A DNA stretch of 49,355 bases, from contig NZ_LT904908.1 in NCBI RefSeq assembly GCF_900199705.1, positions 1,401,642-1,450,996 on the forward strand, written 5' to 3'. Position 1 is the stretch's first letter. Each line of letters starts with the position of its first letter. The notes below the pieces were generated by a model. The model worked only from the letters and a program-made list of their open reading frames with translations. It searched no databases and was not told where the DNA came from. Shown one piece after another: positions 14,639-44,119 of the stretch. A program made the translations under genes and the position numbers. Source of the DNA: Collinsella provencensis (lineage in GTDB: Bacteria > Actinomycetota > Coriobacteriia > Coriobacteriales > Coriobacteriaceae).

Positions 14639-14785
14639 TGCAACGAGGTCGGTTATTCGCACTGTTTGGGCGATTCGTTGAGTAGACGAGGGATTTGAGG
14701 GAGCGCGACCTGCGGTTTTGGTCCCTAAAAATGAGTGCCTACTTTGCGAAACCCCGAAACTATGCGAATAACCGACCTCGTTGCA
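14639..14785 (+). repeat. Nested-stem intergenic element, copy A
   Basis: 147 bp bounded by perfect 23-base inverted repeats (14639-14661 with 14763-14785). Inside is a second short stem (AGTAG near 14681 with CTACT at 14739-14743) and the core ACCTGCGGTTTTG at 14708-14720. It contains no gene. The same inner stem and core recur at 27558, 30706 and 36061. Orientation is given by the core. Confidence 0.8.
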
Positions 14786-14800
14786 AGTTAGATGCGCCGG

Positions 14801-14877
14801 CGTCGCAGCCCCGCGCCCCGGACGGGGTTCGAATCCGTGCGCGTTCCGACAAAAAGCGAGCCGCCCGGGCTCGCTTC
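14801..14877 (-). repeat. tRNA-Ser tail repeat, distal copy, with terminator
   Basis: 77 bp, nearly identical to 14898-14975. Read on the minus strand it has a terminator hairpin (GCGAGCC/GGCTCGC, then TTTTT) followed by a T-arm-like stretch in antisense (GGATTCGAACCCCG) and a GC-rich end. Confidence 0.75.
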
Positions 14878-14897
14878 GCTGGCCGATGCTGCCGCAT

Positions 14898-14975
14898 CGT
14901 CGCAGCCCCGCGCCCCGGACGGGGTTCGAATCCGTGCGCGTTCCGACAAAAAAGCGGGCCGCCCGGGCTCGCTTC
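14898..14975 (-). repeat. tRNA-Ser tail repeat, proximal copy, with terminator
   Basis: 78 bp. It differs from the distal copy at two places, one extra A in the T-tract and a C/A change in the stem. Its hairpin plus TTTTTT starts about 15 bases after the tRNA-Ser CCA end and is the likely tRNA terminator. The unit repeats every 97 bases. Confidence 0.75.
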
Positions 14976-14986
14976 TCAAACCTAAC

Positions 14987-15076
14987 TGGCGGAGAGAGGG
15001 GGATTCGAACCCCCGAGGCGCGTAAACGCCTAACGGTTTTCAAGACCGCCGCATTCAACCGCTCTGCCATCTCTCC
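14987..15076 (-). tRNA. tRNA-Ser (anticodon TGA)
   Basis: On the minus strand the acceptor GGAGAGA pairs with TCTCTCC, followed by discriminator G and an encoded CCA. The anticodon loop CTTGAAA gives TGA. A long variable arm (about TTAGGCGTTTACGCGCC) and GGTTCGAATCC in the T-arm fit a class II serine tRNA of 90 bases including CCA. Confidence 0.96.
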
Positions 15077-15986: not shown

Positions 15987-16103
15987 CGCCTCGCGCGTTC
16001 GATGGGTTCGGGTGACGATATGTTCCGAACCTGGTCAGGTCCGGAAGGAAGCAGCCATAAGGAGCCTCTGCCGGGCACCCGTTCCCATCGAGCACACGGG
16101 GCG
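15987..16103 (+). ncRNA. ffs: Signal recognition particle RNA, 4.5S type
   Basis: RNA scaffold that binds Ffh and targets nascent membrane proteins. The diagnostic apical domain is GGTCAGGTCCGGAAGGAAGC at about 16033-16052, with the GGAA tetraloop and the symmetric and asymmetric internal loops (AGCAGCC). The outer helix pairs TTCGATGGG (15998-16006) with CCCATCGAG (16084-16092). CGCC at the 5' end pairs with GGCG at 16100-16103. A T-rich run (TTTCCTTTTCC) after it probably terminates it. Ends are approximate. Confidence 0.95.
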
Positions 16104-27517: not shown

Positions 27518-27557
27518 AAGACCGCGCCTCAATGACGAGATGCGGTCTTTTCGTTTT
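27518..27557 (+). terminator. Terminator after dedA, abutting repeat copy C
   Basis: AAGACCGC/GCGGTCTT closes a 16-base loop and is followed by TTCGTTTT. The T-tract runs directly into the repeat element at 27558. Confidence 0.75.
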
Positions 27558-27699
27558 CAAAAATGACGGAAATGCGCAATTCTATTCGAGCATGGCGAGT
27601 ATAGGCACATTTAATACTCGCTTTACCTGCGGATTTGCTACTAAAAATCGCTGTCTACTTAAAAAGACGGAAATGATTTATGCATTTCCGTCTTTTTTG
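27558..27699 (+). repeat. Nested-stem intergenic element, copy C
   Basis: 142 bp with 18-base terminal arms (27558-27575 with 27682-27699, 17 of 18 complementary). An inner stem GAGTA (27597-27601) with TACTT (27656-27660) encloses the core ACCTGCGGATTTG at 27625-27637. The right arm can instead pair perfectly for 15 bases with 27661-27675, forming a terminator-like hairpin with a T run. Confidence 0.8.
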
Positions 27700-30705: not shown

Positions 30706-30858
30706 ATGCACAACGAAGTAGGGTTTGCGTACAGTTTGGGCGATTTGGAGAGTAGAGGCGAAGTTCACAAGCGTGCGACCTGCGGTTTTGTTTTCAATAA
30801 ATCGCTGTCTACTCGGGAAAACCTGGTCGTTGTACGAAAACCCTATCTCGTCGTGCAT
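30706..30858 (+). repeat. Nested-stem intergenic element, copy B
   Basis: 153 bp with 28-base terminal arms (30706-30733 with 30831-30858, 24 of 28 complementary). The inner stem GAGTAGA (30750-30756) with TCTACTC (30808-30814) is perfect, and the core ACCTGCGGTTTTG is at 30778-30790. It shares GTTTGGGCGATT with copy A. Confidence 0.8.
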
Positions 30859-36020: not shown

Positions 36021-36060
36021 ACTGCCCCCTCCAAGATTTGGCAGGGGCAGTTTTGTTTTT
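36021..36060 (+). terminator. Terminator after pyrE, abutting repeat copy D
   Basis: ACTGCCCC pairs with GGGGCAG(T) across a 13-base loop and is followed by TTTTGTTTTT. As at dedA, the T-tract runs straight into a repeat element. Confidence 0.85.
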
Positions 36061-36202
36061 CAAAAATGACGGATATGCGCAAATCTTTTCGAGTGCGATG
36101 AGTATAGGCAGGTTTTGCGTTCATCTTACCTGCGGCTTTGCTGTTCAAAATCGCCGTCTACTCGGAAAGACGGAGATAATATATGCATTTCCGTCATTTT
36201 TG
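36061..36202 (+). repeat. Nested-stem intergenic element, copy D
   Basis: 142 bp, same length as copy C. The terminal arm CAAAAATGACGGATATGC (36061-36078) pairs with the right end at 17 of 18 positions. The inner stem GAGTA (36100-36104) with TACTC (36159-36163) encloses the core ACCTGCGGCTTTG at 36128-36140. A local alternative for the right arm (around GACGGA near 36169) is weaker than in copy C. Confidence 0.8.
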
Positions 36203-43969: not shown

Positions 43970-43979
43970 GGGGAATCCT

Positions 43980-44115
43980 CCGTTTCTCTCATCCGGACTA
44001 TAACCGTCGGCCCCGGAGTTTCGCCGGGTCAACCGCTGTGCGGCTCGCGGGCTTCTGCGCGCCATGTGTCTGCGCAGTCACCGCCGGTGGGGAATTACAC
44101 CCCGCCCTGAAACGG
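43980..44115 (-). ncRNA. FMN riboswitch (RFN element)
   Basis: Read on the minus strand, all conserved blocks appear in order: AGGGCGGGGTGTAATTCCCC, ACCGGCGGT, AAGCCCGCGAGCC, GGTTGACCCGG, then CCGGGGCCGACGGTTATAGT and CCGGATG. The closing stem pairs CCGTTTC with GAAACGG. The last two bases of that stem belong to the GGAGGA ribosome-binding site of the S-component gene, which suggests control of translation start on FMN binding. Confidence 0.96.
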
Positions 44116-44119
44116 TTTC

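Follow-up and report, generated by a model that had tools for sequence, protein, structure and literature searches.

The window analysed here, a stretch of 49,355 nucleotides from the 1.74-Mb genome of Collinsella provencensis, carries four palindromic elements, A to D, which are listed in Table 1 together with their central cores and the other features of the stretch; the functions given to the genes next to them are by-eye readings. A first-pass annotation of this DNA had described a family of four copies whose outer arms differ in sequence while staying self-complementary, and this description holds. All four copies begin at the positions it gave, the arms pair within each element (17/18 in C and D, with A and B as tabulated), and, while the arms differ among copies, the same sequence, ACCTGCGGnTTTG, lies exactly near the dyad centre of every one. 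The inner stem GAGTA/TACTC that had been ascribed to all four is found in B and D, but not in A and C, which have TACTT and G-U pairing at that place.

Table 1. Features of the 49,355-nucleotide window, in window coordinates.
Feature	Position	Strand	Remarks
Element A	14639..14785	+	147-bp palindrome; 23 perfect outer pairs
Core of A	14708..14720	+	ACCTGCGGTTTTG
Direct repeat, ~80 bp	14805..14985		Next to the tRNA; units carry tRNA-3'-end-like GGTTCGAATCC (by eye)
tRNA	14990..15076		
Bacterial small SRP RNA	15999..16094	+	Rfam
Intrinsic-terminator-like hairpin and T run adjoining C	27518..27557	+	L011; the 45 nt preceding the element fold at -19.6 kcal/mol
Element C	27558..27699	+	C/D family; arms CAAAAATGACGGAAATGC
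Core of C	27625..27637	+	ACCTGCGGATTTG
Element B	30706..30858	+	28-nt arms, imperfect; flanking ORFs converge
Core of B	30778..30790	+	ACCTGCGGTTTTG
Intrinsic-terminator-like hairpin and T run adjoining D	36021..36060	+	L013; the 45 nt preceding the element fold at -21.0 kcal/mol
Element D	36061..36202	+	C/D family; 3' of an ORF that by eye resembles pyrE
Core of D	36128..36140	+	ACCTGCGGCTTTG
FMN riboswitch	43977..44118	-	Rfam

Exact matches to the core occur at four sites in the window, all of them in A to D, and when up to two mismatches are allowed 18 sites are found, compared with a mean of 5.27 and a maximum of 11 in shuffled sequences. Across the genome there are 14 exact cores versus none for the reversed pattern, and 46 versus 12 for the control at no more than one mismatch, and we therefore do not regard the cores as products of chance. 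At least 15 copies in this genome are palindromic, namely ten of the C/D kind, A, B, and three with a third type of arm (L001, L004 and L154). The direct repeats beside the tRNA are a separate feature of the window and are possibly tRNA remnants or att scars.

The core is not peculiar to this genome. Its 13-base form is found in 42 of the 43 genomes of the genus (the reversed control gave 7 matches in total), and a 14-mer, ACCTGCGGTTTTGC, occurs in 106 of 296 genomes of the class Coriobacteriia (control, 7 matches) and in 16 of 270 genomes of Actinomycetota beyond it (control, 1 match). Pairing arms, defined by a complementarity score of at least 13, surround 77 of the 145 distinct cores present in the Coriobacteriia loci that were fetched, against 0.2 for Markov shuffles and 5 of 136 random positions, and at 75 of these 77 armed sites the dyad centre falls inside the core or no more than three bases 5' of it. 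The armed sites form about 25 arm clusters, 13 of which contain members of the genus; this is a working number, for by eye some related arms have been split (L092, L096, the second copy at L135, and L127/L128) and two types of the genus have been merged, and the distinct families may be nearer 20. A pyrimidine stands two bases before the core in all 25 cluster representatives, at a position that the search pattern did not cover. From one cluster to the next, then, the sequence of the centre is constant and the arms are replaced wholesale; the annotation had recorded this centre in its four copies. A MITE keeps its terminal repeats constant, and the arrangement seen here, with variable arms and a constant centre, is the reverse.

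The annotation had offered two possible natures for the family, an RNA motif or a mobile palindromic element, and the second of these is supported by the multiple copies of the C/D element, by its restricted distribution, and by the differing arms of the clusters. When the genus was searched with the DNA of the D locus, the C/D element was recovered from its own genome alone, in at least ten places, and had no match in the 42 other genomes, among the best 10 candidates scored per genome. In 40 of these genomes the matches were limited to the upstream gene or to short pieces, and two matched nothing; in 29 of them, the region 3' of the upstream gene showed no C/D-type element by inspection. The whole sequence of element D had no match among phages and plasmids. 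As a side observation, several genomes of the genus have CTCTACCTGCGGCGTCG, part of the core, 3' of the pyrE-like gene (L344, L347, L349, L350, L353 and L354), although the intergenic sequence around it is a different one.

A multi-copy family that is unmatched elsewhere in the genus in that search is also what would be seen if the elements were ordinary MITEs or REPINs and the internal core were the recognition sequence of a transposase or RAYT. Several clusters carry by eye the tetranucleotides GTAG or CGTC, which the available text of PMC3733652 describes as tags of REP superfamilies, and Y1_Tnp matches, many of them RAYT-sized, are present in 37 of the 43 genomes of the genus. Against this, the genome that carries A to D has no match to Y1_Tnp (PF01797), and 30 of the Y1-transposase loci found in the genus gave no core at zero or one mismatch and a single short arm match; taken as control loci, these 30 gave 2 core-like sites versus 10 for the reversed pattern. 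A transposase site would, moreover, be unexpected at the dnaA regions, phage ends and mihF promoters described below. We consider such an origin of the core improbable, and a REPIN/RAYT system, tried as a candidate on the strength of these protein and locus searches, was rejected; no RAYT or other mover tied to the repeats was found. Two observations may be recorded alongside. GTAG (of the CGTAGTAAACCGGCATAG type) or CGTC (CCGTCATTTTTG) is seen in arms at, for example, L100, L104 and L016 and in the C/D family (tags as in PMC3733652, in part), and most genomes of the genus encode many Y1-transposase-like proteins of about 250–350 aa, the size of RAYTs (L307-L328), none of which is tied to the repeats.

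The other nature proposed for the family was an RNA motif; stem positions that change on both sides between A and B had been read as a sign of selection for structure. Across 11 copies, 15 pairs are changed on both sides, whereas the shuffled mean is 5.7 and none of 500 shuffles reaches 15, and most of these changes come to light when A and B are set against the C/D type. Within the C/D family alone there are 4 such changes versus 2.8, a level reached by 133 of 500 shuffles, and further pair types are reached by 134 of 500. Covariation is strong between arm types, where it reflects the exchange of whole arms, and weak within the C/D family. The comparison with Rfam that the annotation had proposed was run on all copies, and no named family reaches the gathering score at any of A to D in the window; a relaxed search with A and D gave matches far below the cut-off only.

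If the arms and core nonetheless formed an RNA hairpin at the 3' ends of genes, as a structured RNA or a bidirectional terminator, several properties of the elements would be accounted for. The predicted folds are strong, with fold energies that differ from those of shuffles by z values of -10.6 (A), -3.4 (B), -6.3 (C) and -4.4 (D); a terminator-like hairpin lies directly beside each of the ten C/D copies of the genome (fold energies -12.9 to -33.5 kcal/mol, weakest at L005 and L007); on both strands the C/D arms finish in runs of A and T; and the covariation score of the C/D family is reached by just 11 of 500 shuffles. The absence of any Rfam family at the gathering score and the shuffle-level counts of pair changes in C/D speak against it, as does the recurrence of the core, free of such hairpins, at dnaA regions, in attP, at the ends of phage genomes and in the spacers of mihF promoters. 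The RNA-motif half of the earlier proposal is unsupported on these grounds and by the weak covariation within the C/D family, and we judge an RNA or terminator function of the elements to be very improbable. The core looks like a site in DNA.

The places where it occurs without arms point in the same direction. In other bacteria, dnaA regions, sigma54 promoters and tRNA- or att-like places are where IHF acts. Locus L052 is a dnaA-rpmH intergenic region (genes named by eye) with DnaA boxes and an armless core. Twenty dnaA regions from outside the Coriobacteriales contain 12 core-like sites at no more than two mismatches, compared with none for the reversed control, while 20 from within the order, our genome included, contain 3 versus 2 for the control, which is background, and the dnaA region of the genome under study has no site at two mismatches or fewer. 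Thirty bacterial integrase loci gave 10 core-like sites versus 2 for the control, and at three of them, nearly identical to one another, the core is flanked by TTTACTCCC repeats. Loci L047, L048 and L049 represent one orthologous locus in three families, with an armless core between a UAS-like CGACA-n-TGTCG palindrome and a sigma54-like -24/-12 promoter (both recognised by eye). RpoN is present in all three of these genomes, and in general was found in all 9 genomes tested outside the Coriobacteriales and in none of the 10 inside; nine rpoN loci, taken as controls, contain no core site. A further core lies near a tRNA-Met, where TGTTAGACA is repeated (L051), and another near a sequence resembling a tRNA 3' end that ARAGORN does not call (L044).

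Mobile DNA of actinobacteria carries the site as well. The site is present in 810 of 50,697 records of named phages; 783 of the 810 are actinophages and 27 enterobacterial phages, and the reversed pattern matches none; the two enterobacterial matches listed both lie within annotated genes. All 100 matching plasmid records (out of 72,556) are actinobacterial, so that in phages and plasmids alike the site is nearly confined to the lineages that have mIHF. In the viral contigs of IMG/VR, CTGACCTGCGGTTTTGC was found in at least 120 stretches versus none for the reversed sequence, whereas a TCTACC form was found in 36 versus 17, only about twofold above its control. When 60 of the phage rows were sampled at even steps, a set that includes many related phages, the site lay within 200 nt of the record end in 46 (counted by eye) and had no annotated gene beneath it in 58. 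We take the record ends here to be cos ends. The site is 113 nt from the right end in LittleE, 57 nt in Giles and, with one mismatch, 50 nt in RockyHorror.

In other phages the site is found at attP, lying 146 nt 5' of the tyrosine-integrase gene between TTGGGTACA repeats in Taquito and 92 nt 5' of that gene in Estave1. Two of four mid-genome sites that were checked do not adjoin an integrase; that of Waits precedes parA and that of Rey lies between divergent genes. From 42 listed viral loci, 30 ORFs were chosen, one per site, and 14 of them match Pfam, including four terminases, two tyrosine integrases, a serine recombinase and a portal protein. An attempt to reach attP through relatives of the integrase proteins in IMG/VR yielded 0 and 1 relatives, the one being L470. 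In four IMG/VR loci (L505, L567, L477 and L474) the site stands between direct repeats, AAAAGTGGGCAGAG, in an attP-like layout, the neighbouring ORFs at the first three having no Pfam match, and copies of the CTGACCTGCG type, lying in either orientation and in several cases running into nnGATGC, are clustered in unannotated DNA of the last 1.5 kb of Gordonia phage Daredevil (L647). The sequence has also been printed without remark: in the text available to us, the phiJoe Int-attP primer of PMC5311408 contains CCGCAGGTCAG and the Streptomyces albulus pls promoter of PMC8117764 contains CTGACCTGCGGTTTTAT.

Lambda has IHF sites at attP, between the integrase arm sites, and at cosB, near the packaging end. 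The placement of CTGACCTGCGGTTTTGC in actinophages is of the same kind, although the sequence is unlike the IHF consensus and the hosts here are actinobacteria. We read CTGACCTGCGGTTTTGC as an IHF-like site because it is found where IHF sites lie elsewhere, that is, at dnaA/oriC, at the attP of tyrosine integrases, at phage ends and at a sigma54-like promoter, and also in mihF promoters.

As to the protein that might occupy such a site, HU/IHF (PF00216) was detected in none of 59 Coriobacteriia genomes, our own included, while 9 of 14 control genomes were positive; this conflicts with PMC5683647, which in its accessible part assigns the Coriobacteriia an HU of one clade. The H2TH protein mIHF (PF22525), known as the actinobacterial IHF, is present in 58 of the 59, and one of the 14 control genomes, that of C. 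glutamicum, has an mIHF-like protein. The mIHF of the genome under study matches the solved structures of mIHF (6tob, E 1.9e-29) and SCO1480 (4itq, 3.8e-25), and on plasmids mIHF-like proteins were seen under actinobacterial record names only.

Promoters of mihF itself carry the site. In 50 mihF upstream regions of 200 nt each, CGCAGGTCA, the reverse complement of TGACCTGCG, is exact in 18, compared with 0.11 for shuffles and none for the reversed sequence, and 17 of these 18 come from outside the Coriobacteriales and lie in the 17-nt spacer of a promoter of the type TTGGCA-17-TAnnAT. The remaining one belongs to family f1 (one of its nine upstream regions), and neither form of the site is present in families f3 (9/9 regions lacking it), f7 (2/2) and f9 (4/4). 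Among 80 named mihF loci from Coriobacteriaceae and Atopobiaceae, which include many related strains, the core is found at no more than two mismatches in 23, versus 0 of 80 for the reversed pattern and 2 of 400 shuffled sequences, at positions that vary and on either strand. Such shifting is the turnover expected under autoregulation. The mihF upstream region of our own genome has no good site, the best having four mismatches. In Collinsella aerofaciens (L411, L412 and L430) an inverted pair, AGCCCCTGTGCCTGCG and CGCAGGTCAGGGGCT, forms by eye a small palindrome of two half-sites 5' of mihF.

We suggest that the core, in its longer form YCTGACCTGCGGTTTTGC, is probably the double-stranded DNA site of a sequence-specific, IHF-like architectural protein, most likely mIHF, and that the elements of the window are dispersed intergenic palindromic repeats with this site at their dyad. 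The grounds for this reading are all of them sequence observations: an oriented site in the DNA, located at the centre of the elements, nearly confined to actinobacteria, placed as IHF sites are and recurring in mihF promoters. That mIHF binds and bends the site is inferred from them. On balance we also lean towards the more specific and general proposal that mIHF has a defined site of about 17 bp, YCTGACCTGCGGTTTTGC, near oriC, attP, phage ends, sigma54 promoters and its own promoter, and that this site has become the centre of many palindromic repeats unrelated to one another.

Published work describes the protein differently. In the parts of these papers available to us, M. tuberculosis mIHF gave no common ChIP-seq motif and is called not sequence-specific (PMC6155035), M. 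smegmatis mIHF bound attB, oriC and GC-rich DNA with equal affinity and, although found as the integration host factor of phage L5, showed no specific binding to attP (PMC10028186), and binding was non-specific in AFM work (PMC3724605). Together with the corresponding account of sIHF in Streptomyces, these descriptions (PMC6155035, PMC10028186, PMC3724605) favour another reader of the same site, with the same IHF-like role: an uncharacterised nucleoid protein or regulator of actinobacteria that also controls mihF. The mihF operator is equally compatible with a regulator acting in trans, and several genomes have the site elsewhere and lack it at mihF. Recurrent, shifting sites in mihF promoters and the presence of mIHF in 58 of 59 genomes of the class are, however, explained more simply by autoregulation, and the description of msIHF as the L5 integration host factor (PMC10028186, in part) agrees with the site's position at the attP of two phages. 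A reader other than mIHF therefore seems to us unlikely, and mIHF is retained below as the candidate binder.

Among named repeat systems, one close resemblance is to the BIME-1/RIB of E. coli, in which, according to the consulted part of PMC2817692, two inverted palindromic arms surround the site of a host factor and the elements lie at the 3' ends of transcription units. Both traits recur here, the arms being inverted palindromes on the two sides of a central site and the C/D copies lying at 3' ends. The core is unrelated, however, about 25 arm clusters share it, and no link to a RAYT was found; furthermore, BIME-1/RIB binds IHF of the HU family, which was found in none of the 59 class genomes. 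As regards arms of the REP family, the arms here differ among the clusters and gave one short match at the 30 Y1 loci, and some of them carry by eye the GTAG or CGTC tags. The Correia Repeat Enclosed Element (CREE) of Neisseria offers a second parallel, having a 153-157 bp form, inverted repeats, an internal IHF site and evidence of mobility (PMC2649163, in part). The elements described here likewise measure about 150 bp and have inverted repeats and a central site, which to judge by its context may bind a host factor. It is the terminal repeat, however, that defines a CREE, whereas the present elements have variable arms around a constant centre, and the site and the phylum differ.

We envisage that mIHF would bind the core at the centre of the dyad and bend the DNA. 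Such a bend would bring the two arms alongside each other and might thereby aid synapsis or cruciform formation in the mobilisation of the element itself, and/or the protein-bound hairpin might act as a boundary at the 3' ends of transcription units, comparable to the role of IHF at BIME-1/RIB (PMC2817692, in part). A role for IHF in the mobilisation of Correia elements has been suggested in the available text of PMC2649163. The weakest step in this scheme is the bringing together of the arms by a central bend, with the roles that would follow from it for the element. No description of the motif was found by a literature search with the sequence of the site, or in the literature that links Collinsella, Coriobacteriia or Eggerthella with repeats, nucleoid proteins or IHF, as covered mostly outside subscription journals, and the accessible parts of PMC8040213, PMC5683647, PMC12306157 and PMC3733652 contain none.

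The elements are new ones of the BIME/Correia kind, and the site that they carry is the larger finding. It is a puzzle in print that mIHF supports the integration of a mycobacteriophage without binding DNA specifically (the available text of PMC10028186), and the core may be the missing landing site of the protein. A defined site makes this puzzle testable, and the mihF operator together with the attP sites and genome ends of phages would be natural substrates. If the proposal is true, it would provide a long IHF-type site for the chromatin of actinobacteria and a means of finding attP and cos ends, and it would present a case in which palindromic repeats with different arms have converged on one host-factor site.
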